From: Nitrospirota bacterium
Lineage (GTDB): Bacteria > Nitrospirota > Thermodesulfovibrionia > SZUA-242
DNA length: 43,084 bases
Assembly (NCBI GenBank): GCA_027021335.1
Contig: JALUUO010000057.1
Span: 1-43,084 of the forward strand
Reading direction: 5' to 3'
The notes beneath the pieces were generated by a model. It had not been told where the DNA came from. It searched no databases and saw nothing but the letters and a program-made list of their open reading frames with translations. The position numbers and the translations under genes are program-made. Shown one piece after another: positions 1 to 16,414 of the stretch (positions are counted from its first letter, which is position 1; each line of letters starts with the position of its first letter).

Positions 1-12
1 TCTCAGGTCTCT

Positions 13-711
13 TCAAGGTATCGGATAAAAAGTACAATTAAGATCAAGTGCGGCTGCAAGTTGTTCCAGGTACTCTTTTCTCCTGACCTCAACAGCGCCC
101 ATCCGGGCTGTGGTTTCTGTGATCACCTGGCAGTCAAGCAGTACAAAACCGCGTGCTCTTAAATGTTTAACAAGGGCTGCCAAAGCCACCTTTGAGGCGT
201 TAGGTTTGCAGTAGAACATGGATTCACCGGCAAAAAATCCGCCGATGCAGACACCGTAAAGTCCACCGGCCAATTCACCATCACTCCATGCCTCAATGCT
301 GTGTGCGTGGCCTAGCCGGTGAAGCTCGATATATGCTTCTATCATATCCTTTGTAAGCCAGCCCGGCCCGTAATTTTCTTCGTGCCTGGATGCGCACTGC
401 TTTATGACTTTGCTGAAATCCGAATTGATACGTATCTCGAAAATATTTCTATTTATAATCTTCCGGAGTGTACGGCTGATCTGGAATGCCTCCAGCGGAA
501 TTACAGCACGTGGATCAGGCGACCACCACAGAATCGGTTGGCCAGGACCATACCAAGGAAAAATCCCGCTTCTGTAAGCCAGCATCAGGCGTTCGGGAGA
601 AAGATCACCACCTACAGCAACGATTCCCTCATGCGTGGAAGTTTCAACGTCCGGAAACCAAAGTCCTGCACCTTTGGTGCTATGGTCTTTGAGACTCCCC
701 TGGACAATCAT
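13..711 (-). CDS. aat: Leucyl/phenylalanyl-tRNA--protein transferase
   Basis: Aat transfers Leu or Phe from aminoacyl-tRNA to N-terminal Lys/Arg of proteins in the cytoplasm, creating N-degrons that ClpS delivers to ClpA(P). The 232-residue length fits the family. Family blocks are visible: FPW near residue 51, WWSPDPRAVI (about 62-71), HSIEAW (about 136-141), GGLYG and GFFAGESMF (about 148-166). The stop is at 13-15. The ATG at 711 lies only 6 bases after the stop of the sulfotransferase-like gene, with a weak GAGCGG upstream. It therefore looks like the last gene of a minus-strand run rather than having its own promoter. The partner genes clpS and clpA lie 13 kb away on the same strand, separated by the phosphatase/sulfatase-fold island. 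Identity is firm; co-transcription is inferred from spacing. Confidence 0.95.
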   Translation of the reverse strand: MIVQGSLKDHSTKGAGLWFPDVETSTHEGIVAVGGDLSPERLMLAYRSGIFPWYGPGQPILWWSPDPRAVIPLEAFQISRTLRKIINRNIFEIRINSDFSKVIKQCASRHEENYGPGWLTKDMIEAYIELHRLGHAHSIEAWSDGELAGGLYGVCIGGFFAGESMFYCKPNASKVALAALVKHLRARGFVLLDCQVITETTARMGAVEVRRKEYLEQLAAALDLNCTFYPIP

Positions 712-717
712 AACCGC

Positions 718-1329
718 TCACTTTTTTCTTTGACGGTAAAGCTTTGGATCAATCACTGCTTCTGCCTTTTCAGAATCCAGTATACCGTCCAGAAATTTAT
801 TGATCATTTCAATATGAGGTTTTGGATCTTCGAGCAGCTCGTTGAAATTTATATCAAGACGCATTATGTTCGGCTGGCTGTTGACCCAAGCATCAACCTG
901 CTGTAAGTGCTCCATATAAAGCCCGGCCATTTCCTCATCACTTGTATCGTCTGCGTCCTCTTTACGGCGAACCAGCATTTTTTTCTGAGAAGCCAGGATT
1001 TCCGGCATGGACCGCTTCATAAAGATGATGCGGTATGTATAGGCAGGAGGCAGGTACAATAGTAGAGCCGAAATCACCTTGACCACCTTCCCCTCGGCCT
1101 CGGCCAGCCAGGAATTGTCTCCATCAACAAGTTTTTTTACACGTTCAAACTCGTAGTAGCCTTTTGGATTGTCGTCATCCGCGGTTCTTAAGTTGTCGGT
1201 AAGAGGAAGCAAGCCGCCCGCCTCCAGCATTTTCATCATCATTGATGTGCCGGAACGGGGCAGGCCCGAAACAATTGTTATGTCACGGCTATGGTTCTTT
1301 TTTCGAAATACTTTAAGTAGGCGTTTCAT
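718..1329 (-). CDS. Sulfotransferase-like P-loop protein
   Basis: A 203-residue soluble protein with the 5'-phosphosulfate-binding P-loop signature of PAPS-dependent sulfotransferases, SGLPRSGTSMM at residues 21-31. A second family-like segment, RIIFMKRSMPEILASQKKML at about 119-138, corresponds to the 3'-phosphate-binding strand and helix. It is short for a sulfotransferase (usually 250-300), but compact homologues with this P-loop occur. The acceptor cannot be read from the sequence. It starts at ATG 1329, about 120 bases after the polytopic AP-superfamily gene 1452-3701, and ends 6 bases before aat. Placement beside sulfatase-fold genes suggests envelope glycan or lipid modification, but no substrate is shown. 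A general P-loop kinase is the alternative. Confidence 0.8.
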   Translation of the reverse strand: MKRLLKVFRKKNHSRDITIVSGLPRSGTSMMMKMLEAGGLLPLTDNLRTADDDNPKGYYEFERVKKLVDGDNSWLAEAEGKVVKVISALLLYLPPAYTYRIIFMKRSMPEILASQKKMLVRRKEDADDTSDEEMAGLYMEHLQQVDAWVNSQPNIMRLDINFNELLEDPKPHIEMINKFLDGILDSEKAEAVIDPKLYRQRKK

Positions 1330-1451
1330 GTTGTATTTAAATTATAATTACTTTCCTGGTCTTGTTAAAAAAACTTCACCGTTGATGTTGGCAGCAACCC
1401 AGTATCTTGCTACTTGCACTTAGTCGCATCTAATTAGCGGATAAAACGTGG

Positions 1452-3701
1452 TCATTGAACATATCCGAGGGCTTTCAGCCGGTTAAGTGTATCTTTACTT
1501 GGTTGATTGCGGGCAACATTAACTCTTTCAGGTTCGTTTTTCTCCTTTACAGCCAAAAGCCATTTGTTCAGTTTTGATTCGAGATTTTCTGATATGGCGT
1601 TATTTACCATGTCAATGTTCGTCTTTTCTCTGGGGTCTTTTGAAAGGTCATAAAGTTCAGACTTTCCTGAAGTCGAACTTATGAATTTCATGGAATTGGA
1701 AAATATTGCCCGTTCGATACGATGAAACCTCTTATGTAATCTGAGCTTTATACGATCCGGAAATGACTCGCTTATCACAGTTCTATTATTTAAATCTTCG
1801 GGTTTCAACAGGCTGAGACCCTGAACATTTCCGGGAATTTCATATCCCAATGTGTCCAGAACGGTAGGTAATATATCAACACCGCTGACATACTGTTCAA
1901 TTACTGTTTTTTGGCTGCTGTTTGGGTACTTAATAATAAGGGGAACTTTAACCTGGTCTTGATAAACTGAGGTTCCGTGTTCAATATGCTTACGTTCCCC
2001 GAAGGCCTCACCATGGTCTGCAGTGACAATAATCAACGAGTTTTCATATAGATCGGCTTCTTTCAGCCGTGCAAACAGTTTTCCTATATGAAAATCTTCG
2101 TAAGCAATACCACCATCGTACTGGGATAATATATGTTGCCGTTCTTTAACAGTAATATCTCTTTCGAGTCTCAATACCTGATGTTCCAAGTCACGAAAGT
2201 GGCCCATTGTAAAAGTCTCATCTTTACCCGGGAAAAGCCTGTCATATGGTGCCGGCGGGGCATACTCTGTATGGGCATCCATGTAATTTAAAAAGAGGAA
2301 AAAACTGTTGTTATCTTTTTTTGCCTTATCTATAAGTGAAAAGGCAACCTTATTAATTTTATCAGCACGGCGATAGGTGTTATCACGATCGGATGCTGGT
2401 ATCATCCAGGCCATGAAATTATGGATTGTTTGTCTTAGATAGAATGGGCGTACTTTGCTGACAATATTTCCAAGAAATATAACCGGCGATCTATAGTCAT
2501 AAAAATTAAACCCCTGATCCAAATTATAATAATCATGGAGGTATCCTGGGTTTGCAACAACAGCCATTGTTGAGTAGCCTTTTTCAGAAAGTATTTCAGC
2601 AAGTGTATCGAATTTATCGTCCAGGGGCGGTGGACTTTTTGGCCAATCGGCAAATCCGCTTGTTAAATCATCCTCTGACGGTGTATTAAAAATATGATGG
2701 GCACCATGACTTGTTGGATAGAGCCCTGTAAATATTGATGCGTGTGAAGGCAATGTTATGTCAGAGGTTGAGACTGAATTGATGTATAGAGAGGACTCTT
2801 CCGCAAATTTTTTAAGATTGGGAGATGTATCTCTTTCATATCCGTACACTGATAGGTGGTCTGCTCTGACTGTATCCATGCTGATGAGTATGACATTGGG
2901 TTTATTTGTATTTTGAAGTGAAGATAATGTTTTCTGGTCTGTCTGCAGAGGTGTCTGTTTCAGGATAAGACCCGCGCCGAAAACCAGGCAGTAAACAGGA
3001 ACAAGAAACGCCAGCGCCCTCGTAGAAGACACCGGTCTGCTTTCCATCGAATTACTGGTTCTTTTTATAGCTATAATTTTATGAAAAACAAATGATATCA
3101 AAAATACAGCGGCAGGATAAACAAGAGCTGAAAGTGCCCTGACTGTCATCGTGGCACTACGAAGCGGCTCATAAAGTATCCATGGCAGAATACCAACCAG
3201 CACAAAGGCAACAGTCCAGGGATTGGTGATAAAACGCAATCGTTTCTGCCAGAGAGGATATCCTATACTAAGCGCCAGCGCCGGCAGAAGGAGGAGGGAA
3301 ACACCCATAGAGGGTAAAAGTGGACGGATATGGTAGTCCGTATACAACCATATATAACATATATTTGCATTAAAGGCCAGAACAACGGTAAGTGTTGTAA
3401 AGGGAGCGAACATTGAGCTACCTGTTTTTTTCGAGAATAGATTGGCCCTGGTTGCCGCATAAATGCAGAGTCCGGATATTCCACCAATGATCAGACCCAT
3501 AACCGGATAAACGGTAAACAGCAGCAAAGTAAAGTAACGATGAACAGGTGTATAGGCATGTGACGGGGTCATGATCCAAGGAAGAATGGCTGTAAAAAAA
3601 TACTCAACCACTGCATAAACAATCCATGCTGTTACTCCGTATATTGCGCCGGCATACATACTTTCACTAACATTCTGTAACCCTTTGGTTTTTGTATTCA
3701 T
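1452..3701 (-). CDS. Polytopic sulfatase-fold (alkaline phosphatase superfamily) enzyme with Thr nucleophile
   Basis: A 749-residue inner-membrane protein. About seven hydrophobic segments occupy residues 14-250 (for example 15-40, 55-82, 98-120, 128-148, 160-178, 186-210, 228-247), followed by a Sulfatase-type catalytic domain from about 268. Metal-site residues are visible: ISMDTVRADH (D276, D281), ADHGEAFGER (D562, H563) and EHG (H575). The nucleophile position reads T-L-P-S-H-A-S (T316), where true sulfatases have C/S-x-P-x-R. A formylglycine is therefore impossible and a phospho-transferase or phosphodiesterase is more likely. The C-terminus ends NRLKALGYVQ, a tail shared with its paralogues. 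A strong Shine-Dalgarno (AGAAGGAGA) precedes ATG 3701. It is closely related along its full length to 11465-13708, so the two are probably an old duplication. Confidence 0.85.
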   Translation of the reverse strand: MNTKTKGLQNVSESMYAGAIYGVTAWIVYAVVEYFFTAILPWIMTPSHAYTPVHRYFTLLLFTVYPVMGLIIGGISGLCIYAATRANLFSKKTGSSMFAPFTTLTVVLAFNANICYIWLYTDYHIRPLLPSMGVSLLLLPALALSIGYPLWQKRLRFITNPWTVAFVLVGILPWILYEPLRSATMTVRALSALVYPAAVFLISFVFHKIIAIKRTSNSMESRPVSSTRALAFLVPVYCLVFGAGLILKQTPLQTDQKTLSSLQNTNKPNVILISMDTVRADHLSVYGYERDTSPNLKKFAEESSLYINSVSTSDITLPSHASIFTGLYPTSHGAHHIFNTPSEDDLTSGFADWPKSPPPLDDKFDTLAEILSEKGYSTMAVVANPGYLHDYYNLDQGFNFYDYRSPVIFLGNIVSKVRPFYLRQTIHNFMAWMIPASDRDNTYRRADKINKVAFSLIDKAKKDNNSFFLFLNYMDAHTEYAPPAPYDRLFPGKDETFTMGHFRDLEHQVLRLERDITVKERQHILSQYDGGIAYEDFHIGKLFARLKEADLYENSLIIVTADHGEAFGERKHIEHGTSVYQDQVKVPLIIKYPNSSQKTVIEQYVSGVDILPTVLDTLGYEIPGNVQGLSLLKPEDLNNRTVISESFPDRIKLRLHKRFHRIERAIFSNSMKFISSTSGKSELYDLSKDPREKTNIDMVNNAISENLESKLNKWLLAVKEKNEPERVNVARNQPSKDTLNRLKALGYVQ

Positions 3702-3761
3702 ATTTACTCGTTCTCCTTCTGAGTTGTTTTTTTCGCTTGTATAGAAGTTGTATAAAAAAGG

Positions 3762-4589
3762 TTAAACAGAAACCCTAAACGGCTTCAACAGCATAAAGCC
3801 AAATACAAGTGAAAGAATGAAAAACAGTACAAGCCAATGTACAGTCCAGCCAAATAATGAAACCTTCATGTATGGATACCTGACCTCAAAAGACTCGACT
3901 TCAAAATCACTTGCCAAGGCTGGTTCGCCAGGATAAAAAAATGTTTTCAGCCCATTTTCTTTTAAGGTTTTAGGTGAAATTTTTGTAACTTTATCACCAA
4001 TTACAATCCTCTTTTTTATTTCTTTATTAAACACCCGGAAGCTTAAATCGAACTCTCCTTCTTCTTCAGCTTTGATTCTCCAGTATATTTCCTCTCCCCC
4101 GTTAATACGCAGTGGAGGAGTCTCTACCTTCAAACCTTTGGGCAGAACCAAGATTCCATTGGCAGCATTTTCGGACTTAGTTGGATTATTTATTCTTACT
4201 TTTACAATAGCCGTTTCGCCGGAGTGAAGGGGTCTATATTCATATCTAAGGCCGGTCTGAATAATTATTATCACTACAGGCAGCATAACAAACAACAAGG
4301 GTTTTAACATATGCTTCAAGTATATAAGATTATATTTCAACATATTCTTCTGTGCAGATAATACTATCCTTATATCGTTTTTAAATAGTCTTACTTCCAG
4401 GAGATGTCCCATTATTCTGCTTTTAGTTCTCTTAATAGCCTCCTGATTTGATGTATATTTAAAAATTGGAAGCATTATCACTGTAGTCAACAGAGAAACG
4501 GCACACAATCCATATATCGGGTCAATTGACCTGAACGGGTAAAAAAACAGGTCAAAGATTGAAGTAATGATATGATTAAACTTGTTCAT
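3762..4589 (-). CDS. EMC3/DUF106-like (Oxa1/YidC superfamily) membrane protein with extra beta domain
   Basis: A 275-residue protein. TM1 is at about 25-45 and a basic, helical, probably cytoplasmic stretch follows (46-92; K/R rich, AIKRTKSRIMGHLLEVR). TM2 is at about 95-113 and is preceded by YNLIYLKHMLKPLL, with prolines at 97 and 104. A 125-residue beta-rich soluble region follows (116-240; VKVRINNPTKSENAANG, LPKGLKV, then alternating strands). TM3 is at about 247-268. The TM1/basic coiled region/TM2 arrangement with N..YLK.MLKP resembles the DUF106/EMC3/TMCO1 branch of Oxa1-type insertases; this is judged from pattern memory, not a search. The beta region looks like an Ig-like or cohesin-like periplasmic insert. 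The start is 6 bases after the small upstream gene, with no clear Shine-Dalgarno, so translational coupling is likely. Function unknown. Confidence 0.6.
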   Translation of the reverse strand: MNKFNHIITSIFDLFFYPFRSIDPIYGLCAVSLLTTVIMLPIFKYTSNQEAIKRTKSRIMGHLLEVRLFKNDIRIVLSAQKNMLKYNLIYLKHMLKPLLFVMLPVVIIIIQTGLRYEYRPLHSGETAIVKVRINNPTKSENAANGILVLPKGLKVETPPLRINGGEEIYWRIKAEEEGEFDLSFRVFNKEIKKRIVIGDKVTKISPKTLKENGLKTFFYPGEPALASDFEVESFEVRYPYMKVSLFGWTVHWLVLFFILSLVFGFMLLKPFRVSV

Positions 4590-4595
4590 AAACTT

Positions 4596-4787
4596 TTAAG
4601 ATAGATAGCCTAGCCCTTGAAGTCTCTTCTTAACCTTGTCCTCAGAGAGGGATTCATCTTGCCTTGATATCTCTTTTTCTATCAGATGGCTTATAAACTC
4701 ATCAACCGATGAATACCCGGATTTTTCAGCGTATTGTGTAGCCTTTGATAATAATTCCTTCTCAATTTTAATTTTTGAACCAAACAT
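4596..4787 (-). CDS. Small ribbon-helix-helix-like protein with LGYLS tail
   Basis: A 63-residue protein read from ATG 4787, which has a good AAAGGTG site just upstream; an in-frame TTG at 4817 would add ten unconvincing residues. Residues 5-41 follow a CopG/ribbon-helix-helix pattern: the strand KIKIEKELL, a first helix (ATQYAEKSGY), then SSVDEFISHLIEKEISR as the second helix. The acidic linker DESLSED follows. The last 14 residues (KVKKRLQGLGYLS) match the C-terminal tail of the three sulfatase-fold enzymes of this island (LKALGYVQ, LKALGYIQ, LKSLGYL). It sits between the phosphodiesterase gene ending at 4823 and the EMC3-like gene, with 6-base spacing to the latter. It could be a regulator or a small adaptor; DNA binding is unproven. 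Confidence 0.7.
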   Translation of the reverse strand: MFGSKIKIEKELLSKATQYAEKSGYSSVDEFISHLIEKEISRQDESLSEDKVKKRLQGLGYLS

Positions 4788-4822
4788 GATTTCACCTTTC
4801 TTTCTAAAACCTTTCAAGTTTT

Positions 4823-6784
4823 TTAAAATATAGGTTCTCCTACCATATCTTTATCTTTTTCAATATTGAACTCTTTCAAAATAGTAGGCGCAATATCGTA
4901 TAGAGCAGGAGAATCTGTCTTAATCTTCCTGTTTGAAAGAATAACTCCTGGCACCAGCTTATAGTTCCACAAATGTGTACCACTCCATTTCTGCATGTTG
5001 TCACCAATTAGTCCTTCAGGAACCTTGCCCAGAGCTGTTTCCCAGGAAGCCCTATAGCCCCTGTTATAACCTATAAGAAGATCAGGCGAGTCTTCAACAT
5101 ATTTGCCGGAATATAGCTCCCTGCTTTTATAGACTTTACTGATGATACTCTCTCCTGTTACCGGGTCTATCACAGCCTCCAGTTTCTCGATAAGTTCATC
5201 CATAAGTTTTTCTTTTTCAGCTCCACTTGATACTATTCCCTTGCCCTCTCTTCCCTTGAGGTTTATATATACTCCATTGAAACCAAGTGCATACGCAGTT
5301 GTCTGGTTGAAGTCCACGTTCTCGAAAAAGGCTCCGCTTTTTTTAATGTTTCTGTCGATAAAATTAATATATCCGTTATTTTTCAACCAGGTATTCAGAT
5401 GAAAATATCTGCGAAAAGAACCAAAACCGTGATCTGAAAGAGTTATGAGGGTGGTGTCGGCATCGATTTTTTTCATTGTATTTTCAAGAATGATATCCAT
5501 GTCCATATATGTTTTTCTTATGGCTCCGGAGTATTGCGCAGCTTCTTCCGAGTTATGGGCAGGATGTTTCTTGTCTATGTTTCGCCAAAACATATGTTGA
5601 ACAGGATCAGTCGTAGGGAAATAAACAAATAAGAGGCCTGAGTCGAATCGCTTCATCTCCAGGTCGAGCATCCTTATTCTTTCGTTCTTTATAAATTCAG
5701 ATAACTCCAGGAAGTCATCGTTATGAAGGTAATCCTGATCCAGAGCTTTTGTATCTTCAGGCATTCCCTGAGTATAGAAAAAACCGATTTCATCAACAAG
5801 CTCGGCCGAGTAGTCATCAGGAGTACTGACCGGAATTGTTGGATTGGAAGGATCAATATTTATTGGAGAGACGTAAAGTTCAAACTCCGGCCTGACTTTC
5901 ATCAGGTAGAACCGGCAGATTCCGGTTATTGATTGAAAAGGTGCAAGGTTAAATTCAACCTGTGCCCAATCGCTCCACTCCCCTTCATTCAGAAGAAACT
6001 CGTTGTCACCTGCCTGGATCAGCGCCACCGGGTTTTCAGGATCGACTGTTATTGTAAGCTCTAAACTTACTTCGGTCTTGTCAGCCCTAAACGGATTTGG
6101 AGGCCCAGTCAATTTTGTTTTAACGATATTATTTGAAAAATGTATGTTTAATACTCTACCGCTTGTGACCTCCTCATCTGTTTTTATTTTTTTGGTGGTA
6201 TAAAAAGTAAATGTTCCGTATGTTCCCAATATGTCCGGTGTCCCCATTCCAGAGAGGGTTTTTGCTCCGGATTTGACAGGTGGAAAGTTTGCCGGAATTT
6301 TTATCACTGTTGAAGGGATACCCTCGTGTTCAAGGATTTCCCAGAAGGCCTTTCCTTTTCTAAGAAGCAGTGTTTCGGCCTTAGAAAACGGAATAAGCCA
6401 ATCACCTATTTTAAGTGTTCTTTCGGCTTCAGTCGTCTTGGAGGTGGAAAGATAAGGCATGTAGCTTTGCGGTTCTCTGGCGATAAAATCAAAAATACCG
6501 TGCCCTCCGGGATTCATGCCCGTGATTAAGTTAGACCATGCTACAGGGCTTTGAGGCGGCATGGAAGTGACAAGAGGTTTGAAACTCCCCATTTCCTTAA
6601 GCCGTTTAAAGTTCGGCATAAGGCCTTCCGCCATATATTTTTCGAGCAGCACAGGGTCCATACCGTCAAAACCAAGTACAAGAACCTTTTTTGCAGCTTG
6701 TGGCTGTTTTGCCTCAGCTAGGGAAGAGATTGCGAAGTAAGAGGCAACGATGAAAAGTATGGTAAATAAGATAAATCGTTTCAT
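4823..6784 (-). CDS. Exported type I phosphodiesterase/nucleotide pyrophosphatase-like enzyme
   Basis: A 653-residue protein with an N-terminal hydrophobic signal or anchor (residues 3-24, ending SSLAEA), placing the enzyme in the periplasm. The alkaline-phosphatase-superfamily core begins at KKVLVLGFDGMDP (D40 metal ligand). The nucleophile region is PPQSPVAWSNLITG with S79 aligning with the NPP Thr/Ser. The later metal site is LSDHGFGSF, and GTHLWNYKLVPGV lies near the end. It is a paralogue of the gene immediately upstream (6781-8907), sharing the same blocks in order, but lacks the YIGPGAG membrane segment. Its ATG overlaps the upstream stop by four bases (ATGA), indicating translational coupling and probable joint action. 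Substrate unknown; phosphodiester or phosphoryl-lipid headgroup hydrolysis is a family-level guess. Confidence 0.85.
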   Translation of the reverse strand: MKRFILFTILFIVASYFAISSLAEAKQPQAAKKVLVLGFDGMDPVLLEKYMAEGLMPNFKRLKEMGSFKPLVTSMPPQSPVAWSNLITGMNPGGHGIFDFIAREPQSYMPYLSTSKTTEAERTLKIGDWLIPFSKAETLLLRKGKAFWEILEHEGIPSTVIKIPANFPPVKSGAKTLSGMGTPDILGTYGTFTFYTTKKIKTDEEVTSGRVLNIHFSNNIVKTKLTGPPNPFRADKTEVSLELTITVDPENPVALIQAGDNEFLLNEGEWSDWAQVEFNLAPFQSITGICRFYLMKVRPEFELYVSPINIDPSNPTIPVSTPDDYSAELVDEIGFFYTQGMPEDTKALDQDYLHNDDFLELSEFIKNERIRMLDLEMKRFDSGLLFVYFPTTDPVQHMFWRNIDKKHPAHNSEEAAQYSGAIRKTYMDMDIILENTMKKIDADTTLITLSDHGFGSFRRYFHLNTWLKNNGYINFIDRNIKKSGAFFENVDFNQTTAYALGFNGVYINLKGREGKGIVSSGAEKEKLMDELIEKLEAVIDPVTGESIISKVYKSRELYSGKYVEDSPDLLIGYNRGYRASWETALGKVPEGLIGDNMQKWSGTHLWNYKLVPGVILSNRKIKTDSPALYDIAPTILKEFNIEKDKDMVGEPIF

Positions 6785-8907
6785 CTTTCGCTCTCTGGCT
6801 TTTTTGGGCTGATTAAAGGCTTTCCGTCCATATAAGATGGAATCTCCACTCCGAATAAATCAAGAACGGTAGGGGCCATATCCTTGATATGGGGGGTGTC
6901 ATCAGATATTTTTCTGTTACAAAAGAAGACTCCCGGAACAAGACGCGGATCCATGCAGTGATCTCCACTCCAGCTTTTGTTATTATCTTCGAATGTTTTT
7001 GCGTCCACTCTGCCGACAGCCGCCCCCCAGGATGCTCTGTAACCTTCGTTATAACCTATAATCAGATCAGGACCATTATCACGGTATGGCCCATCATAAT
7101 GTTTTGTAATATCATAAACTTCTTTTATCGCGATTTGTTCTGTTTCTTCATCAGGCAGACCTTTAAGCCTGTTTATCAGCTCCGCCTTTAACTCTTCTTT
7201 TTCATCAGAAGACACAATCCCCTGCGCTTCTCTTCCCTTTTGGTTTATATAAATACCACTCAGGCCGAAGGTATATGCCCTGGTCTTGCTCCAGTCAATA
7301 TCCTTAAACCATTCATCACCTGTCTCTTTTCCATCCTTCATCGCTAAATATCCGTTTTTATAAAGCCATGAGTTCAGATTGATTCCACGCTTAAACTGTT
7401 TGAATCCATGGTCGGAAATAACCATCAAGACATCGTCTTTATCAATGGTTTTCATCACCCTGCCGATCATGTCATCCATCCTGGTATATAGTTGCTCAAC
7501 CGTGTTTTCGTAATTTTCTTTAACTACATTATTAATAGAGTGAGCAGGATGGTCTTTAGAGATAAAACGCATAAACATGTGTTGAATTCTATCTGTTGTA
7601 TCAAACACACATACGCACAAACCGTTTTTTGTCTTATCAATAGCGTTGAAAAACATCGTTTCTCTTTCTTCGTGGTGCTTGTATGCCTGCTCCAGAAAGA
7701 TATCTTCATCGATCACTCTTTCGTTTAACGCCCATGTATCCTCAGCAAGACCGAGGGTGGCGTAACTGCCCATAATCTTAGCCAGGTAGACAGAATAGGA
7801 AAATGGAAACGATATGGGAAGAGATGGAGATTCAGGGTCGATATTTATAGGAGTCATGTACATTTCGAAGTCCGGTTGAATGTTTTTTATATAAAAACGG
7901 CATATTCCATGAACCTTCATGCCCGGCCCGGCTTTAAAAGTTAATTTCACCCAGGGAGAATAAGTCCCCTTTTTAAGCCTTATTTTTTCTTTTAATATCT
8001 CTAAAGTAGCTTCATCTTCACTGTTTACGGTAATAATAAGTGGGATACGCATTTCTTCGGTTTTTTTGAGCAGGTAATTATCCGGTCCCGGAATATGCGT
8101 TTTGATTTTATTCCCTTCCCTGTCAACATGTATCTGTACTCCACCTGTCTGTTTTTCAACCGAGTTTATATTGGATGTATAACCGGTAAAGGTTCCCTGA
8201 GTACCCTTTAAATCCGGTACACACATTCCGGATAAAAGCACTCCGTTCAACTTTTCAGGAGGATATGTTATAGGTACCCTGATTATTGCACTAAAAATAC
8301 CGTACTTATCCATGTGAGTCCAGAAGGGCTTGCCTTTTCTTAAAAGCTTGACACTTGCTTTGCTTAGCGGGATCGAATATTTACCTATGGATAGGTTTCT
8401 TTTTGAGCCTGTCTCTACCTTTGTTGACGAGAGTTCCGGAAGATAAGTACGAAGGTCGCGGTTTAAAAAGTCGAAGATATTATGGCGTGACGGATCGACG
8501 CCTGTAATAAATGTGGACCATGCCACTGGAGAGATCGGCGGAAGAGTTGTCTGGAGTTTTTGAAATGTGCCGCTACTTCCGAGTTCTGAAAGGTTCGGGA
8601 GTTTGCCTTCCTGCATATATTGTGTAGCCAGGTCTGGATCCAGCCCATCAAGACCCACTATAATTACGCGCTTGGTATCATGTTTTGCAAACGAACGCTT
8701 TTTTGTCTTTAAGCCTCTAATGACAAGGCTAAGCGGCCAGAAAAGAATTGTCATTACAGCCAATAATATACTTACAAGAAGGATGAAGAAAGAGGATATG
8801 AATGCGAAACCAGCGCCGGGACCAATATAAGCATGCGCGGTTTCAATGCCGCCAGGAAGTAAAGATACAGATAACGTTAATACTAATATATAAAGAAGTT
8901 TTTTCAT
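6781..8907 (-). CDS. Membrane-anchored type I phosphodiesterase-like enzyme with YIGPGAG motif
   Basis: Read from ATG 8907 the protein has 708 residues and starts with a clear signal sequence (MKKLLYILVLTLSV). A TTG at 8940 would put 11 polar residues before it. After the predicted cleavage region (ETAHA) come AYIGPGAG and a long hydrophobic helix (about 32-65), then a basic cytoplasm-type patch. The catalytic domain starts at RVIIVGLDGLDPD (metal-binding Asp about 87) with nucleophile motif PPISPVAWSTFITG (Ser about 126) and SDHGFKQF. The sequence parallels the 653-residue downstream paralogue throughout. This is the first gene of the minus-strand run leading to aat. The topology between the signal and the second helix is ambiguous, so whether the active site is periplasmic is inferred from the paralogue. 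Confidence 0.82.
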   Translation of the reverse strand: MKKLLYILVLTLSVSLLPGGIETAHAYIGPGAGFAFISSFFILLVSILLAVMTILFWPLSLVIRGLKTKKRSFAKHDTKRVIIVGLDGLDPDLATQYMQEGKLPNLSELGSSGTFQKLQTTLPPISPVAWSTFITGVDPSRHNIFDFLNRDLRTYLPELSSTKVETGSKRNLSIGKYSIPLSKASVKLLRKGKPFWTHMDKYGIFSAIIRVPITYPPEKLNGVLLSGMCVPDLKGTQGTFTGYTSNINSVEKQTGGVQIHVDREGNKIKTHIPGPDNYLLKKTEEMRIPLIITVNSEDEATLEILKEKIRLKKGTYSPWVKLTFKAGPGMKVHGICRFYIKNIQPDFEMYMTPINIDPESPSLPISFPFSYSVYLAKIMGSYATLGLAEDTWALNERVIDEDIFLEQAYKHHEERETMFFNAIDKTKNGLCVCVFDTTDRIQHMFMRFISKDHPAHSINNVVKENYENTVEQLYTRMDDMIGRVMKTIDKDDVLMVISDHGFKQFKRGINLNSWLYKNGYLAMKDGKETGDEWFKDIDWSKTRAYTFGLSGIYINQKGREAQGIVSSDEKEELKAELINRLKGLPDEETEQIAIKEVYDITKHYDGPYRDNGPDLIIGYNEGYRASWGAAVGRVDAKTFEDNNKSWSGDHCMDPRLVPGVFFCNRKISDDTPHIKDMAPTVLDLFGVEIPSYMDGKPLISPKKPESER

Positions 8908-9294
8908 TTGAGATATAGTAAGTTTATTGAGTATATTCAATAACTTTGAGGTACTAAGTGATCTCTTTGCCTGAATTTGCTATGGGTGGTAGAACCCTTC
9001 AGTGCAGAAGACGACTCAAACTTCATTATTGTTCCGAGTTATTAATTATAACAGAAAGCTCCATTCTTTATCTTCACTATATCAACTAGTGATTCGGTAT
9101 CGCAGAAAAATACTGAATTCTAAGACTCAAATTTGGCAGTATAAAACTATATCTTTTTAACCGGCATATTGTAAAATAGTAAAGTATATTTTTTACATTT
9201 TACCCCCGAAATAATACAACCCGGATGAGCCGCAGTTCTAAGAAATTTCTAAGTAGTTTTTTACAGGGTTCATTTAGTTGTAAATTTAATAATA
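8908..9294. promoter_or_regulatory. Divergent intergenic region inside the island
   Basis: About 390 AT-rich bases without a gene separate the first gene of the minus-strand run (start 8907) from the plus-strand sulfatase-fold gene (start 9295). Promoters for both directions should lie here, including the one likely to serve aat. I see no convincing -35/-10 pair or Shine-Dalgarno for either start. The only strong structure is the inverted repeat at 9171-9203. Confidence 0.5.
9171..9203. repeat. 12-bp inverted repeat, possible operator
   Basis: The left arm GTAAAAT-A-GTAAA (9171-9183) pairs with the right arm TTTAC-ATTTTAC (9192-9203), with one unpaired A at 9178 and an eight-base centre. It lies about 90 bases upstream of the plus-strand start at 9295 and 260 bases upstream of the minus-strand start. 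The AT-only arms make a terminator unlikely and a regulator binding site plausible. Chance cannot be excluded in such AT-rich sequence. Confidence 0.45.
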
Positions 9295-11394
9295 ATGACT
9301 TCATATAAAACAAAAACAATCAAAATTTTTTTTCACATTGTTGCTGCAGGTGCCTCTATTGGAGCGGTTTTTGGCTTTTTAAGCGCATGCCGTGATATTT
9401 TTCTAAATGGTTATTTCAGTTTGGGATACTGGAGAAATATATCATTTGTTCTGCGAAATACGATGACAGGGTGGACATTGATTGGAGCTGTTATTTCGGT
9501 TGCGCTCATTCTGTTAAGGTTTTCACTAAAAAAGGTATCAATAATTACGGTTCTAACAAAGCTTACCCTGAAACCACTGCGTTTGTCTCATGCCGCTGTT
9601 TTTCTGGCCGCCTCAGTACTTTTGATGGTTTTAGTCTTTTTCGTTCTGTTCGTTCTTTACGGCAGGCCGGAACCACGGTTTCTAGGCGCTATATTGGCGG
9701 TAACCCTCATAGGTTTCGGGCTTGCTGTTTCTATTGCTCACTTTTTGAGCAGACGTTTTATCCCTGACTCCATAAATTACCGGACATTCCTTTATGGGTT
9801 TTACGCAATGACGTCAATATTCTTGAGTGGTAGTATGATTGCTCTTTATCCGAACTGGCGTAACCCTATGCAAAGCGAGAGTGTTACTGCCATTATAAGT
9901 CTTGCTATAGGTTCGTTTTTTACTTTTTTCATAGTTCGTGCAGTTTTTTTCAACTTAATTAACCTGACTAACCTTTCGCGCAGTCTATTGCTGAAACGCT
10001 ATATACTGTCTCCATACATACTGCCGCTTATTCTGTTTGTTGGATTTCAGTTATTATTTCCATTTTTGTCTCGTCCGACACTTAGTACGAAAACGTCAAA
10101 GAATATAGTTCTTATAGGAATCGATACATTGCGCCTTGACCATACCTCACTCTTTCGCACTGATCAGAGAGGCCTTCAACTCACACCAAATTTAACGCGT
10201 CTGTCTAAGTCAGGTGCCAGCTTTCGTCACGCGATCTCCCAGGCGCCATGGACAATGCCGGCATTTGCATCAGTAATGACAGGACGTTATCCGCAAGAAC
10301 ACCGGGCGATTTCCCAGGGCGGTTTTCTGCGAAAAAAAGAATCCACCCTGGCAGAGGTTCTAAAAGAAGCCGGTTATTATAACTCTGCCGTTATAAGCGC
10401 ACCTATGCTTAATGAAAGACATGGTTTTTCACAGGGCTTTGATGAATTTGACCAGAGTAACATTTTAGGCCGCGCAGCTATCACCTCTAAAAAAGTCACG
10501 GATAAAGCGCTTAATACCATTAAGGAAAATAAAGACGGCCCGTTTTTCCTGTTTGTTCATTATTTTGATCCCCATTATGACTATATGCAGCAACCTGACT
10601 GGGACTTTGCAGATCACTATACAGGTTGGCTTTCTAAGAACCGGATAACAATAAATGAGTTAAGGGAGAAGAGGCGGCTGCTCGGCCCTGATGACATTGA
10701 GTACCTGCTGGATCTTTATGATGAAGAGATAGCATACACCGACCGGGAAATCGGCCGGTTGCTGGCCTTTCTAGAAAAAGAAGGCCTTATGGAGGAAACA
10801 GCAGTAGTAGTTGTTGCTGACCACGGCGAGGAGTTCATGGAGCGGGGATGGATCGGTCATACAGTAAGCCTGTTTAACGAACTGATCCGGGTCCCACTCA
10901 TCATGCATTTGCCGGGTGTAAGTTCAACCGGAACTGTTATAGACACCGTGGTCGAAACAAGATCTGTGTTTGGAACTATTCTTGATTATCTTGGCATTCG
11001 TAAAGGGGAAAAAACGGAGTCAGACAGCCTTGTACCATTGCTCACGGAAACGGCCGAACATAATAAAGATAAGGAAAGCAGTTACGGATTCGCTTTTTCA
11101 TCAACATGGCTTCCCGACGCTCATGGAGAAAAACGTGTGCGCAAGTTATCCGTTCATATGAATGAGTGGAAACTTATCTTTGATTATGATAATAACAGCT
11201 CGCTTTTATACGATTTATCCAAAGATCCCTACGAAACCAGGAACCTCGCTTCCGAGGAGCCGGAAAAGAGGGCTGAACTCTGGAAATTACTTGATTCCTG
11301 GCATAAAATGGTCGAAGCTTCCGGTGCAGAAACACCGGCCTTGAATCTAAGCGAAGAAGAGGTTCGTAAGTTAAAGTCTCTCGGATACCTGTAA
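9295..11394 (+). CDS. Polytopic sulfatase-fold enzyme with Thr nucleophile (plus-strand member)
   Basis: A 699-residue protein with six or seven hydrophobic segments up to about residue 257 (12-32, 58-76, 97-122, 130-150, 165-185, 196-220, 238-256). The catalytic domain then starts at IVLIGIDTLRLDH (D277, D282). The nucleophile position is A-P-W-T-M-P-A-F-A-S with T320 in place of formylglycine Cys/Ser. The second metal site is VADHGEEFMERGWIGHT. It ends VRKLKSLGYL, the shared island tail. It is more distant from the 749- and 747-residue proteins than those are from each other, and its membrane region is different. It is the only plus-strand gene of the island and converges on 11465-13708. 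Likely an envelope phospho- or sulfo-ester enzyme; the exact chemistry is unknown. Confidence 0.82.
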   Translation: MTSYKTKTIKIFFHIVAAGASIGAVFGFLSACRDIFLNGYFSLGYWRNISFVLRNTMTGWTLIGAVISVALILLRFSLKKVSIITVLTKLTLKPLRLSHAAVFLAASVLLMVLVFFVLFVLYGRPEPRFLGAILAVTLIGFGLAVSIAHFLSRRFIPDSINYRTFLYGFYAMTSIFLSGSMIALYPNWRNPMQSESVTAIISLAIGSFFTFFIVRAVFFNLINLTNLSRSLLLKRYILSPYILPLILFVGFQLLFPFLSRPTLSTKTSKNIVLIGIDTLRLDHTSLFRTDQRGLQLTPNLTRLSKSGASFRHAISQAPWTMPAFASVMTGRYPQEHRAISQGGFLRKKESTLAEVLKEAGYYNSAVISAPMLNERHGFSQGFDEFDQSNILGRAAITSKKVTDKALNTIKENKDGPFFLFVHYFDPHYDYMQQPDWDFADHYTGWLSKNRITINELREKRRLLGPDDIEYLLDLYDEEIAYTDREIGRLLAFLEKEGLMEETAVVVVADHGEEFMERGWIGHTVSLFNELIRVPLIMHLPGVSSTGTVIDTVVETRSVFGTILDYLGIRKGEKTESDSLVPLLTETAEHNKDKESSYGFAFSSTWLPDAHGEKRVRKLSVHMNEWKLIFDYDNNSSLLYDLSKDPYETRNLASEEPEKRAELWKLLDSWHKMVEASGAETPALNLSEEEVRKLKSLGYL

Positions 11395-11464
11395 CCCAAG
11401 TTGATAAAATTGACGATAAGACAATGGCTCAGCATCTCAAAGTGTGTCTAGATTATGAGCACGG

Positions 11465-13708
11465 TTACTGGATATATCCTAAGGCTTTTAAGCGGTCAAG
11501 GGTGTCTTTGTCTATTTTCTTATGTGACAAAGAACTCTTAAAATATGGAGACTCTTCCTTGGTATCTGAGAGCCATTGGTTTAACAGGGCTTCCAGATCA
11601 ACAGCGACATCTGTATTTTTGCTGTAAATATTTGTTGTTTCGTTGGGATCCGTGGATACATCGTAAAGTTCCTGCTTTTTCAAGGTAGATGTGATAAGCT
11701 TCATCCCACCTGAAAATACCGCCCTTTCAATGTTATAAAAACGTTTATGCCATTTAAGCTTTTTACGGGAAGAAAATGATTCGCTTATCACAAATCTGTT
11801 ATTTAAGTGTTCAGGTTTAAGCAGGCTTATGCCTTGCAGGTTGCCGGGAATTTCATACCCCAGAAAATCAAGAACAGTCGGCATAATATCTACACCACTG
11901 ACAAATTCGTCCACCACTTTGCTCTGGCCGGTGCCAGGATACCTGATCAGAAGAGGCACATAGACTTCATTTTGATAAACAGAATTTTCGTGTTGAATAA
12001 AGTCCCTTTCTCCAAAAGCTTCACCATGATCCGATGTAATAATAATAACGGTTTTTTCATAAAGTCCGGCTTTTTTCAGCCTCTTAATTAATTCTCCGAT
12101 ATGAAAATCCACATACGCAATTCCACCATCATACTGTGAGACTATATGCTTTTGTTCTCTTCCGGTAATCTTACGCTCAAGCTTCATTACCTGTTTTTCC
12201 ATCTCAACAAATTTACCGGGTGTGTATGTCTCGTCTTTACCCGGGAAAAGTTTGTCATAGGGTGATGGCGGGGTATATGGAAAATGAGGGTCCATATAAT
12301 TTATAAACAGAAAGAAGCGCTCGCTTTTTTTAGTTTCATCAAGAAGAGTAAAAACCTCATCATTAATTTCATCCGCATTGCGAAACGCCATATCATAGTC
12401 GGAAGAGTGTATAAACTTGGATAGAAAAGTATGAATACTCTGCCTCAGGTAAAATGGATGCACTTTTCCACGAAATTGTCCCAGAAACGGCACCGGAGTC
12501 CGGTAATCATAGTGTTGAAACCCTTGGGTTAAACGGTAAGAATCTCCAAGGTATCCCTGGTTTGCAACTACGGCCATTGTTCTATAGCCTTTTTTCGAAA
12601 GAATTTCAGCAATTGTACTAAATTTATCATCCAGCGGCATGTTATGTGCCCAGTCATAAAAGACACCTGCACGATCATCCGCCGGGTTCTGAGTCTCAAA
12701 TACATGATGAGCGCCATGGCTTCTTGTGTAGAGTCCTGTAAAAATAGATGCATGAGATGGCAGCGTCATGTTTGATGTAGCAATTGCGTTTTTGTACAAA
12801 ATAGCTTCTTGCGACAGCCTTTTAAGGTTTGGGGTGGTATCCCTTTCGTATCCATACAATGATAGGTGGTCAGCCCTTACCGTATCCATTGTGATAAGTA
12901 TAATATTAGGTTGACTCGAATCACTGAATGACGCTGCCGTGTTTTGGTCCGTCTGCAGCGGTGTCTGCTTATAAAACAAGCCGGAACCGAAAACAATTAA
13001 AAAAACAGAAGCCGTAAAGACGATATTGCTTTTTGGCGGCGTTGATACTATTTTTATCGCTTTGTCGGTATTTTGCCTGTCTGTGATCTTGTAAATGATT
13101 TTATAAGCAAAAAATGATATTAAAAAAATAGCAGCAGGATAAACCATAGACAAGATTGCCTTAACACTCTTTGACTGACCGGCAAGAGGTTCGAAGGGAA
13201 CCCATGGTAAAATGCCAAACAACACGATCACAGCAACCCATGGATTGGTGATAAAGCAGAGCCGTCCGTACCAGATAGAGGATATGGAACTAAGTATAAC
13301 TCCTGCCATTAACAGCAGGGAAATACAAAAAGACGGCAACATATTAATAACTGGATAATTACTAAACAACGATGTGTAACAGATGTTTAAAACAAAAAAC
13401 AGAATAACAGAAAAACTCGCTGCCAGCTTAAGTAATATATGAGTTTCTTGTCCTCTAAAAAGTCTTTTACCGGTTATCCGGTTAACATTCCACCCTGACA
13501 AACCACCCAAGGTCAAACCAATAACCGGATAAATAAGAAACAACAAAATCGTAAAACCCCAGTGGGTAGGGGTGTAAGCATGAGAAGGCTTGGTAAGCCA
13601 TGGAAGCGTGGATGTAAATAATTGCTCAACAACGGCATAAATCATCCAGGCCGTCAGCCCATAGACAGAACCGGCATATATGTTATCTCCAATTGTTTTA
13701 GTCCGCAT
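11465..13708 (-). CDS. Polytopic sulfatase-fold enzyme, paralogue of 1452-3701
   Basis: A 747-residue protein with the same architecture as the 749-residue enzyme. Seven membrane segments lie within residues 10-246 and the catalytic domain starts at NIILITMDTVRADH (D275, D280). T315 is at the nucleophile position (M-T-L-P-S-H-A-S), with SDHGEAFGER as the second metal site and C-terminal DRLKALGYIQ. Shared blocks such as PWLTKPSHAYTP/PWIMTPSHAYTP and KQTPLQTDQ show the two are duplicates that diverged while keeping their membrane domains. It starts 87 bases after the clpA stop on the same strand, so read-through from clpS-clpA is possible, although a stem-loop (13754-13777) lies between. Because Thr replaces Cys/Ser, I would not call it an arylsulfatase. 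Confidence 0.84.
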   Translation of the reverse strand: MRTKTIGDNIYAGSVYGLTAWMIYAVVEQLFTSTLPWLTKPSHAYTPTHWGFTILLFLIYPVIGLTLGGLSGWNVNRITGKRLFRGQETHILLKLAASFSVILFFVLNICYTSLFSNYPVINMLPSFCISLLLMAGVILSSISSIWYGRLCFITNPWVAVIVLFGILPWVPFEPLAGQSKSVKAILSMVYPAAIFLISFFAYKIIYKITDRQNTDKAIKIVSTPPKSNIVFTASVFLIVFGSGLFYKQTPLQTDQNTAASFSDSSQPNIILITMDTVRADHLSLYGYERDTTPNLKRLSQEAILYKNAIATSNMTLPSHASIFTGLYTRSHGAHHVFETQNPADDRAGVFYDWAHNMPLDDKFSTIAEILSKKGYRTMAVVANQGYLGDSYRLTQGFQHYDYRTPVPFLGQFRGKVHPFYLRQSIHTFLSKFIHSSDYDMAFRNADEINDEVFTLLDETKKSERFFLFINYMDPHFPYTPPSPYDKLFPGKDETYTPGKFVEMEKQVMKLERKITGREQKHIVSQYDGGIAYVDFHIGELIKRLKKAGLYEKTVIIITSDHGEAFGERDFIQHENSVYQNEVYVPLLIRYPGTGQSKVVDEFVSGVDIMPTVLDFLGYEIPGNLQGISLLKPEHLNNRFVISESFSSRKKLKWHKRFYNIERAVFSGGMKLITSTLKKQELYDVSTDPNETTNIYSKNTDVAVDLEALLNQWLSDTKEESPYFKSSLSHKKIDKDTLDRLKALGYIQ

Positions 13709-13753
13709 AGATTTTATTTACTTGTAACAGCTCAGGTATCTTTTTCAGGTTGT

Positions 13754-13777
13754 AGGGGCGTATTACGGTATGCCCCT
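13754..13777. other. Stem-loop between clpA and the 747-residue enzyme gene
   Basis: AGGGGCGTA (13754-13762) pairs with TATGCCCCT (13769-13777) through nine pairs including one G-U, around a six-base loop. No T-run follows on the minus strand, so it is not a classical intrinsic terminator. It may reduce read-through from clpA or stabilise the clpA 3' end. Confidence 0.45.
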
Positions 13778-13795
13778 GTATTTGGATGGTTAAAG

Positions 13796-16093
13796 TCAGT
13801 CGAAAGCTAAGATGATTTTTCCGTTTTTCAGGCCGATACGCAGCATACCGCCTTTTTCCAACTTTCCAAAGAGAAGTTCGTCCGCAAGAGGCTGTCTTAT
13901 CTCTTTCTGGATAAGCCTCCACAACGGGCGGGCGCCATAAGCCGGATCATGACCATTTTCGGCAAGCCACGACCGGGCTTCCGGAGACAGCATAAATGTA
14001 ACCTTCTTTTCTGAAAGTTGAGCCTCAAGTTCCGCGATGAACTTATCCACCACTTGCTCCATGGTCTCTTTGCTCAACCGGTTGAAGGCTATAATGGAAT
14101 CCAGCCTGTTTCTGAACTCGGGACTAAATGTGTTTTTAACCACTCTGCTTACTACGTCCGGTTTGCTTATGTCCTGCGGCTTATTGTTTTTACCGTCCCC
14201 GGCAAAACCGATACTTCCCTTGGCAAGTTCCTGGGCTCCCACATTGCTGGTCATGATAATAATTACATTACGGAAATCAGCTTTTTTCCCGTTGTTGTCT
14301 GTGAGTGTTGCGTAATCCATTACCTGGAGCAGAATGCTGAACATGTCTTGATGAGCTTTTTCAACCTCATCCAGCAGAAGCACAGAATAAGGGTTCTGTA
14401 TTATTGCATCGGTGAGAAGACCTCCCTGGTCAAAACCTACATATCCAGGCGGAGCTCCGATAAGGCGGGAAACAGCATGGCGTTCCATATATTCGCTCAT
14501 ATCGAACCTGAGGAAACGCACGCCCATGATTTTGGCAAGCTGTTTTGCAACCTCGGTTTTACCCACTCCGGTAGGTCCTGTAAACAGGAAAGAGCCTACT
14601 GGTTTATCCGGATGAGAAAGGCCGGCACGGGAAAGTTTAATGGATGCAACAAGGGCTTCAATGGCCTGATTCTGTCCGAAAACCGAAAGCTTAAGGTCGC
14701 GGTCAAGGTTTTTGAGGATTGCCTTATCCGTAACCGAGACACTTTTTGAAGGTATACGAGCGGTCTGAGCCACTATACGTTCTATATCTTTTATTCCAAC
14801 CGTTGTTTTTTGCCTGGCCGTGGTCATTAACCTCGTTGCCGCTCCTGCCTCGTCTATAACGTCTATGGCCTTGTCCGGCAGTCTTCGATCGTTAATATAC
14901 CTGGCCGAAAGTTCAACCGCTGTACGGAGAGCGGCCGGCGTGTAGCGCACGCCATGATGTTTTTCGTAATAAGGCTTGAGTCCTTTGAGTATTGCAACAG
15001 CTTCCTGCGCGGCCGGTTCTGCAATATCGATTTTATGAAAACGGCGCGCAAGCGCCCTGTCTTTCTCGAAATAGTTGCGGTATTCCTGGTAGGTTGTAGA
15101 ACCTATGAACCGGATTTCTCCGGAAGCAAGTGCAGGCTTTAATATATTTGAAGCATCCATCGAGCCGCCGCTTGTAGCGCCTGCGCCCACAATTGTATGT
15201 ATTTCGTCTATGAACAAAATCGCGTTTCCGGATTTTTTTAAAGACTTTAGTACTCCCTTAAGCCGCTGTTCAAAGTCTCCACGATACCTGGTTCCGGCCA
15301 GCAGGGAGCCCATGTCCAACAGGTACAGTTCAGCATCTTTAAGAATATCCGGAACCTTACGCTCATGTATCTTTAAGGCCAGCCCTTCGGCCAGAGCTGT
15401 TTTGCCGACTCCTGGATCTCCAACGTACATGGGATTGTTCTTTGTACGGCGGCAAAGGGTTTGCATGGTACTTTTCAGCTCAGACTCACGTCCTATTATA
15501 GGGTCTATAAGTCCTTTCGCAGCCTTTTCCAGAAGATTTATGGTAAATGTCTCAAGCGGTTTTTTGGTAGGGTACGGTCCCTCGTTTCCGAATTTAACCG
15601 AATCCTCATCCTCATCGGAGTATAGGTCATCATCTATTTCTTCGCTTAAATCGTCTATTGCGGAAAGTCCATGGGCAAGGTAATTGACTACGTTAAAACG
15701 GGTGACTCCGGCCTCTTCGAGGAAGTAAACAGCATGGGAATCAGGCTCGCCGTAAAGGGCCACCAACATGTCTCCACCGGTTATCCGGCTTTTGCCGGAA
15801 CTTTGAATATGAGTTGCAGCACGCTGGAGAACACGCCGGAAAGCCATTGTGGGCTCAGGGGTCAGATCAGGCCCCTCGGGAAGGCTGACGAGGCCGTTTT
15901 GCAGGAAGTCTTCAACCACGACTTTCAGCTCATGCGGTTCTCCTCCGACCTGGCTTACAATATCTGCTGTCGCTTCATCCAAAAGAAGGGCAAACAGCAG
16001 ATGCTCGGTTGTAAGGAACTCGTGCCGCTTGGAACGCGCCTCTGCTTGCGCCACGCTTAAAACTATTTCTATTTCCGGACTGATCATGCTCAT
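13796..16093 (-). CDS. clpA: ATP-dependent Clp protease ATP-binding subunit ClpA
   Basis: A 765-residue AAA+ unfoldase that partners ClpP and receives N-degron substrates from ClpS. Two N-terminal Clp_N repeats (about 5-65 and 80-145) precede an acidic linker (EEIDDDLYSDEDED). Module D1 has GDPGVGKT (225-232) and ILFIDEIHTIVGAG. Module D2 has GPTGVGKT (about 505) and VLLLDEVEKAH. The ClpP-docking loop IGF is visible in GSIGFAGDG. There is no ClpB-type middle coiled coil, which separates it from clpB at 25801. The clpS stop and clpA ATG abut (TAAATG). MSMISPE offers a second Met at residue 3. No clpP is in the window. Confidence 0.96.
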   Translation of the reverse strand: MSMISPEIEIVLSVAQAEARSKRHEFLTTEHLLFALLLDEATADIVSQVGGEPHELKVVVEDFLQNGLVSLPEGPDLTPEPTMAFRRVLQRAATHIQSSGKSRITGGDMLVALYGEPDSHAVYFLEEAGVTRFNVVNYLAHGLSAIDDLSEEIDDDLYSDEDEDSVKFGNEGPYPTKKPLETFTINLLEKAAKGLIDPIIGRESELKSTMQTLCRRTKNNPMYVGDPGVGKTALAEGLALKIHERKVPDILKDAELYLLDMGSLLAGTRYRGDFEQRLKGVLKSLKKSGNAILFIDEIHTIVGAGATSGGSMDASNILKPALASGEIRFIGSTTYQEYRNYFEKDRALARRFHKIDIAEPAAQEAVAILKGLKPYYEKHHGVRYTPAALRTAVELSARYINDRRLPDKAIDVIDEAGAATRLMTTARQKTTVGIKDIERIVAQTARIPSKSVSVTDKAILKNLDRDLKLSVFGQNQAIEALVASIKLSRAGLSHPDKPVGSFLFTGPTGVGKTEVAKQLAKIMGVRFLRFDMSEYMERHAVSRLIGAPPGYVGFDQGGLLTDAIIQNPYSVLLLDEVEKAHQDMFSILLQVMDYATLTDNNGKKADFRNVIIIMTSNVGAQELAKGSIGFAGDGKNNKPQDISKPDVVSRVVKNTFSPEFRNRLDSIIAFNRLSKETMEQVVDKFIAELEAQLSEKKVTFMLSPEARSWLAENGHDPAYGARPLWRLIQKEIRQPLADELLFGKLEKGGMLRIGLKNGKIILAFD

Positions 16094-16414
16094 TTATTCA
16101 GGCTCCATACTGCATTTTAACGGGTGTTGATGCTCTCTGGCAAACTCATGGACCTGGTTCACCTTGGTTTCCGAAGTTTCGCGCGTGTAGATACCGGCTA
16201 CACCAACACCCTTGTGATGTACCGTCAGCATTGTATGCAGGGCTTCGGCTTCACTTTTGTGGAAAATTTTACGCAGAACCGTAACCACAAACTCCATAGT
16301 GGTGTAATCATCGTTATGAAGCAGAACTTTGTATAGCTGCGGCTTCCGGGTTTTTTCCTTCTCTAAGATGGAAGTATCGCTTCCAGCCTGATACTGTCTA
16401 TTGCGTCTGACCAT
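16094..16414 (-). CDS. clpS: ATP-dependent Clp protease adaptor ClpS
   Basis: A 106-residue N-recognin adaptor. The hydrophobic-pocket residues are intact and fall at the same numbers as in E. coli ClpS: N34, D35 ([11 protein letters not shown]), M40 and H66 ([10 protein letters not shown]). The N-terminal tail of about 25 residues is polar and basic, as needed for delivery through ClpA. It lies directly upstream of clpA with no gap, giving a two-gene unit. With aat at 13-711 it completes the Leu/Phe N-degron pathway. The start ATG at 16414 is the only sensible one. Confidence 0.96.

Follow-up and report, generated by a model that had tools for sequence, protein, structure and literature searches.

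A conserved, co-inherited four-gene unit, encoding two phosphodiesterases (PDE-A and PDE-B), a small ribbon-helix-helix-type (RHH) protein and an EMC3-like membrane protein, lies within an island of about 13 kb that separates clpA from aat in a Nitrospirota genome. The DNA analyzed, referred to throughout as the window, is a 43,084-nt stretch of contig JALUUO010000057.1 (assembly GCA_027021335.1), whose genes and coordinates were checked with open reading frames (ORFs) and family scans. The core runs in the order PDE-A, PDE-B, RHH, EMC3-like on one strand in 64 distinct loci, which represent at least 13 phyla. We propose that an insertase-type protein serves the phosphodiesterase pair in envelope modification, with sulfation as an option, a reading to which we assign a probability of about 0.45, a little short of even. 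All genes named in a first-pass annotation of this DNA were recovered where it had placed them, and family scans bore out its inventory of the insert (alkaline phosphatase (AP)-superfamily enzymes, a sulfotransferase, an EMC3-type protein and an RHH-type protein).

A Four-Gene Core Recurs Across Phyla

Scanning 84,980 species genomes with an alignment of EMC3-like proteins returned 63 loci, and profile searches of these together with loci drawn from genomes gave 64 distinct loci, the window included. The RHH gene stands directly upstream of the EMC3-like gene in 63 of the 64, the exception (L070) overlapping the downstream end of the EMC3-like gene. Where sequence was available at the position in question, a phosphodiesterase gene lies directly upstream of the RHH gene in 60 of 61 loci, and a second one is present in 50 of 51. 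The pairwise identities of the EMC3-like, PDE-A and PDE-B proteins correlate across loci (Mantel r 0.83–0.94; reached in 0 of 2000 permutations). A separate draw of 396 genomes from the phylum Nitrospirota contained the EMC3-like gene in six, and the one new locus it yielded (G080) also reads PDE-PDE-RHH-EMC3.

The EMC3 tree spans 13 named phyla and places the Nitrospirota copies in separate positions, which requires more than one change of phylum label. The window clusters with two Nitrospirota metagenome-assembled genomes (MAGs; L011 and L012), its neighbors being Scalindua and a deltaproteobacterial MAG, although MAG labels are fallible. In L011, a genome of the same class, the cassette adjoins hydrogenase-like genes and not clpA-aat. 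The first-pass annotation had suggested searching for the island's gene set elsewhere as a unit and took independently scattered island genes in relatives as refuting; the core recurs in constant order and strand, and its genes are not so scattered. No account of a PDE-PDE-RHH-EMC3 cassette was found in a literature search outside of which preprints and most subscription journals fell.

The EMC3-Like Protein

The EMC3-like protein (3762–4589, minus strand) is predicted to be a member of the Oxa1 superfamily, of the three-helix type known from archaea and eukaryotes. The profile of its family matches archaeal MJ0480 (PDB 5c8j) with E=2e-8 over the first transmembrane segment (TM1), the hairpin and TM2, and the third TM segment gives a weak match to MJ0480 in the proper order. 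PF01956 is matched by 13 of 41 family members (best 3.7e-7), and the window protein alone has no Pfam match. In an AlphaFold2 model (mean pLDDT 88.7), a helix at the N-terminus is followed by TM1 and then by a cytosolic helical hairpin that leads into TM2, and a beta-sandwich some 125 residues long precedes TM3; hydropathy agrees with three TM helices and a cytosolic hairpin between TM1 and TM2. Where TM1 ends, all 41 members have a basic residue (K/R44) that precedes an invariant glutamine (Q49) by five positions, as in MJ0480. Foldseek matched the beta-sandwich to immunoglobulin (Ig)/filamin-like domains, and the 50 matches listed for the model include no structure of the Oxa1 family; membership therefore rests on the profiles, the topology and the conserved residues.

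Bacterial YidC has five TM helices and, between H4 and H5, an additional TM hairpin, and the three-helix type has been described from archaea and eukaryotes (PMC8887752, PMC8675477). The window protein does not have the canonical five-TM YidC core, as it has only three TM segments and carries the Ig-like domain where the hairpin would be expected.

The insertase-type fold could instead have been reused, making the EMC3-like protein a structural or lipid- or glycan-handling subunit of a periplasmic assembly with both phosphodiesterases. The unusual Ig-like domain between TM2 and TM3 and the constant pairing with two secreted enzymes speak for such a role, as would the canonical YidC that is expected in all host genomes. 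Two features shared with archaeal MJ0480, the basic residue kept at the end of TM1 in every one of the 41 members and the retained cytosolic helical hairpin, argue the other way, and we consider a non-insertase subunit somewhat unlikely.

Phosphodiesterases, Thr-Type Enzymes and the RHH Protein

PDE-B (4823–6784, minus strand; PF01663, 117 bits) is a predicted periplasmic phosphodiesterase of NPP fold with a beta-rich insert, and PDE-A (6781–8940, minus strand; PF01663, 112 bits) a predicted membrane-anchored one with an N-terminal YIGPGAG-TM segment; PDE-B has one N-terminal hydrophobic segment and PDE-A two. Both appear to combine the NPP-type (PF01663) fold with a complete metal/nucleophile set. 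Seven positions are invariant across the aligned sequences of each (D40, S79, D393, H397, D451, H452 and H604 in PDE-B; D98, S137, D450, H454, D510, H511 and H661 in PDE-A), which we take to be the AP-superfamily metal/nucleophile site, with roles assigned from knowledge of the family. A model of PDE-B (pLDDT 91.9) matches the folds of NPP/ENPP enzymes and phosphonoacetate hydrolase (E 2.5e-10). A single PF01663-type protein of about 630–646 amino acids is present in L095, L096 and L097; it shows 40–42% identity to PDE-B, lacks an obvious signal peptide and is of a type found in many relatives that have no EMC3-like gene.

The other three AP-superfamily enzymes, each with six predicted TM segments, are SULF-A (1452–3701, minus strand; PF00884, 161 bits), the divergent SULF-B (9295–11394, plus strand; PF00884, 142 bits) and SULF-C (11465–13708, minus strand; PF00884, 182 bits), a paralogue of SULF-A with 55.6% identity. 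The formylglycine signature C/S-x-P-x-R is absent from all three, its place being taken by T-L-P-S-H in SULF-A and SULF-C and T-M-P-A-F in SULF-B. Because Thr replaces the formylglycine Cys/Ser, these proteins should not be called sulfatases: the count of five AP-superfamily enzymes made at first pass stands, but the sulfatase label is misleading for three of them. Nor do they reach the curated EptA/LtaS family, scoring 53.5 bits against a cut-off of 500 for P_eth_NH2_trans.

The RHH gene occupies 4596–4817 (minus strand), with a likely ATG start near 4787. RHH_1 is matched by 16 of 37 family members (best 1.1e-4), the window protein itself having no match, and the protein is probably a local regulator.

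Sulfation and Glycan Context

The accessory gene sulT (718–1329, minus strand) encodes a phosphoadenosine phosphosulfate (PAPS)-type sulfotransferase of the Sulfotransfer_3 family (PF13469, 34.5 bits; cut-off 27) with a 5'-PSB-like motif, GLPRSGTSMMMK. The same sulfotransferase subfamily is found near the core in 28 of the 64 loci. In several phyla it lies downstream of the core in the same orientation, and in Acidobacteriota it lies upstream and is divergently oriented. Genes for sulfate activation accompany some cores and, where no Pfam scan covered them, were recognized by similarity to scanned ones or by eye. L018 has a single operon in the order ATP sulfurylase, PDE, APS kinase, PDE, PDE, PDE, RHH, EMC3; ATP sulfurylase and/or APS kinase genes are near the core in L030, L054 and L072; and L071 has a pair formed by a PAPS-reductase-domain (CysD-like) and a CysN-like protein. 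The window's genome encodes a 569-aa APS-kinase-domain protein with an ATP-sulfurylase-like N-terminus, and no PF01507 PAPS-reductase-domain protein was found in this genome, which is 96% complete.

In L008, L009 and L065 the core adjoins glycosyltransferase 2, PMT, UbiA, FAD-oxidase/SDR and flippase-like genes. The sulfation genes and these glycan-type neighbors suggest that the target is a lipid-linked envelope glycan or lipid. Beside the core in L008 (13190–16792), FAD oxidase, SDR, HAD-like and UbiA genes form a group that resembles a polyprenyl-phosphoryl-pentose pathway.

Alternatively, the island could have a catabolic role in which external esters are scavenged for phosphate or sulfate. 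Five enzymes of a superfamily used for ester hydrolysis would suit such a role. However, the three SULF proteins lack the formylglycine motif, a sulfotransferase and sulfate-activation genes are biosynthetic, glycosyltransferases adjoin the cassette in several loci, and no transporter is encoded among the island ORFs. We regard scavenging as quite improbable.

A Shared C-Terminal Tail

In the RHH family, L57, G59, L60, G61 and Y62 of the C-terminal tail are invariant across all 37 aligned sequences, and the same tail, LxxLGY(I/V/L/M), is C-terminal in SULF-A, SULF-B and SULF-C. In the window it reads RLQGLGYLS in the RHH protein (4596–4622), RLKALGYVQ in SULF-A (1452–1478), KLKSLGYL in SULF-B (11371–11394) and RLKALGYIQ in SULF-C (11465–11491). 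Elsewhere the tail ends the APS kinases of L018 (3687–4286) and L030 (4770–5705), PAPS-reductase-domain proteins in L071 and L109 (and in L113, where the domain was assigned by similarity), and many PF01663 proteins in glycan clusters, with tail-bearing loci in L106–L114. The tails of APS kinase and CysD may be similar by descent. Among 4364 ORFs of at least 100 amino acids the motif occurs 49 times against 3 for its reversal, many of the 49 being homologous. Within the window's own genome the LxxLGY form ends four island genes and a single truncated ORF at a contig end, flippase- and ligase-like genes being present on the same contig; there are a few looser matches (e.g., FxxLGY). Polysaccharide clusters in L106, L107, L108 and L114 contain several tandem PF01663-type proteins of about 560 amino acids that end in LGY and have no obvious signal peptide.

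Proposed Function

Our best inference is that the cassette acts in phospho- or sulfo-modification of an envelope glycan or lipid. We hypothesize that, at the inner membrane, the EMC3-like protein inserts or organizes membrane-anchored PDE-A along with PDE-B, its partner in the periplasm. Acting on a lipid-linked envelope glycan or lipid, the two metal-dependent phosphodiesterases would then cleave phosphodiester groups or transfer them. Using PAPS as donor, the cytoplasmic accessory sulfotransferase would sulfate molecules of this same class. Phospho-substituents would be put on or taken off by the polytopic Thr-type SULF enzymes, in the manner of EptA/LtaS-like enzymes, with the RHH protein probably regulating the locus.

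Several observations weigh against this proposal. First, the loci were fetched through the EMC3-like gene, making co-occurrence conditional on it, and homologues of the phosphodiesterases are also found without an EMC3-like gene. Second, the operon structure is read from gene spacing. Third, an obvious dedicated insertase client is not apparent among the cassette genes. Finally, for more than half of the cores no sulfotransferase was seen nearby, and sulfation may therefore be an add-on.

In a more elaborate version, the Ig-domain insertase would build a two-phosphodiesterase complex as an EMC-like insertion machine for sulfo- and phospho-modification, with LxxLGY as a docking or regulatory tag that ties together the RHH protein, the AP-superfamily enzymes, APS kinase and PAPS-reductase-fold proteins. 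We hold this version only tentatively and think it rather unlikely to be correct as a whole. Were an insertase role to be borne out, a bacterial three-helix EMC3/DUF106 branch, linked to a phosphodiesterase pair in at least 13 phyla and with an Ig-like domain replacing the TM hairpin, would represent a new setting for insertases; its interest lies in the treatment of the three-helix branch as archaeal and eukaryotic in the literature (PMC8887752, PMC8675477). It would also mean that an unstudied pathway of surface modification travels between phyla, and the shared C-terminal tail offers a simple handle for finding its parts.

Insertion Between clpA and aat

The insert of about 13 kb is a derived, lineage-specific insertion that splits an ancestral clpS-clpA-aat locus. 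In the window clpS (16094–16414, minus strand; PF02617, 120 bits) and clpA (13796–16093, minus strand; TIGR02639, 1066 bits) are host genes separated by the insert from a third, aat, which encodes leucyl/phenylalanyl-tRNA-protein transferase (13–711, minus strand; TIGR00667, 219 bits; cut-off 143.6), and the distance from clpS to aat is 15.4 kb. Both clpS and aat were found in 30 of 60 relatives compared, these 30 being of the same class, and in 29 of them, two same-family genomes included, they lie on one contig 2.2–2.5 kb apart, which is the length of clpA alone; in the 30th they are on different contigs. In the same-family genome G002 the clpA stop is overlapped by the aat start codon. Since relatives keep this short spacing, the insertion is real and lineage-specific, and the first-pass annotation was right that some 13 kb of inserted DNA divides clpS-clpA from aat.

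Composition and patchy distribution support horizontal acquisition of the island from a foreign source: GC content at third codon positions is 0.34–0.41 in the island genes (0.51 in sulT) and 0.42–0.57 in the flanking genes. The island entered one Nitrospirota lineage. Boundaries of a mobile element were considered and rejected, as there is no integrase among the island ORFs and no flanking repeat at the junctions, and the nearest tRNA gene is at 20849. A palindrome, GTAGGGGCGTATTACGGTATGCCCCTGTA (GTAGGGGC), lies between clpA and SULF-C at 13750–13780 and has no close copy in the window; it is possibly an element like repetitive extragenic palindromes at the insertion boundary.

The sulT/aat junction is 0.7 kb from the contig end, and another contig (C50; positions 1–384 of L005) overlaps window positions 1–384, the aat end, over 384 bp at 99.2% identity. 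C50 starts inside aat and runs on into aroA, tyrA, hisC and pheA-like genes. A duplication of aat was considered; given this continuation, C50 is more likely an overlapping or strain-variant contig end, and strain variation at the insertion site is possible. The nearby contig end and the variant aat end would also be expected if the sulT/aat junction were an assembly chimera, but aat has an intact, in-frame coding sequence, the clpA/SULF-C junction lies well within the contig, at 13.7 kb, and repeats are absent at the junctions, which makes a chimera highly improbable.

Transcription Units and the Position of aat

Four of the five AP-superfamily genes share a strand and SULF-B lies on the other, so the insert is not one transcription unit. 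It comprises at least two: SULF-B alone, and PDE-A, PDE-B, RHH, EMC3-like, SULF-A and sulT followed by aat. The genes for PDE-A and PDE-B share 4 bases, RHH and EMC3-like are 6 bases apart, and 122 bases separate SULF-A from sulT. Within this last gap, just 5' of sulT, is a promoter-like TTAACA-16-TATAAT (1341–1368, minus strand) that has 11 of 12 consensus bases; it is weak evidence, as promoter-like sites in the region do not exceed those in shuffled sequence (29 vs. 34.5). An imperfect inverted repeat, GGTAAAATGTAAAA/TTTTACAATATGCC, 5' of PDE-A was considered as an RHH operator and rejected, being absent upstream in L011, L013, L014 and L015.

The aat start is indeed 6 bases past the sulT stop, as noted at first pass, and this gap makes it plausible that aat is co-transcribed with sulT and expressed from the island, a bystander now in the tail of its transcript. 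The further suggestion of an envelope-modification system tied to an N-degron gene survives in part: the core is without a description that we could find and an envelope role is the best inference, but the functional tie is not supported. Neither aat nor clpS is beside the core in any of the other 63 loci. The only Clp ATPase near another core is a ClpC-type gene in L014, a Scalindua MAG (11972–14455), about 6 kb downstream. A functional extension of the N-degron pathway, with aat and island co-selected, has the 6-bp gap in its favor and is rejected as barely credible, as no other core copy adjoins aat, relatives hold an intact clpS-clpA-aat without the island, and the closest cassette (L011) sits elsewhere in its genome. 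The N-degron link arose only from where the island happened to insert.

Comparison With Known Systems

Sulfotransferase genes occur in bacterial gene clusters for sulfated surface polysaccharides (e.g., PMC11641403), and a sulfotransferase in polysaccharide clusters is what the cassette has in common with such PAPS-dependent pathways; none of the published sulfotransferase pathways that we found includes a PDE-PDE-RHH-EMC3 core. With the EptA/LtaS phosphotransferases, SULF-A, SULF-B and SULF-C share a polytopic N-terminus, an AP-superfamily domain and a putative Thr nucleophile, but they fall far under every curated NCBIfam cut-off, have a sulfatase-like first metal motif and end in the LxxLGY tail. 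The cassette phosphodiesterases have the fold and the full set of metal/nucleophile residues in common with NPP/ENPP (PF01663) enzymes, whereas they are only about 11% identical to solved NPPs, use a Ser within SPVAW as the probable nucleophile, carry a large beta-rich insert and nearly always occur as a tandem pair. Finally, the EMC3-like protein shares with the Oxa1 superfamily (MJ0480, EMC3/TMCO1, PF01956) its three TM helices, the cytosolic hairpin, a profile match to MJ0480 and the basic residue before a Gln. Unlike the characterized three-helix members, it is bacterial, has a predicted Ig/filamin-like periplasmic domain between TM2 and TM3, and is encoded in an operon with phosphodiesterases.

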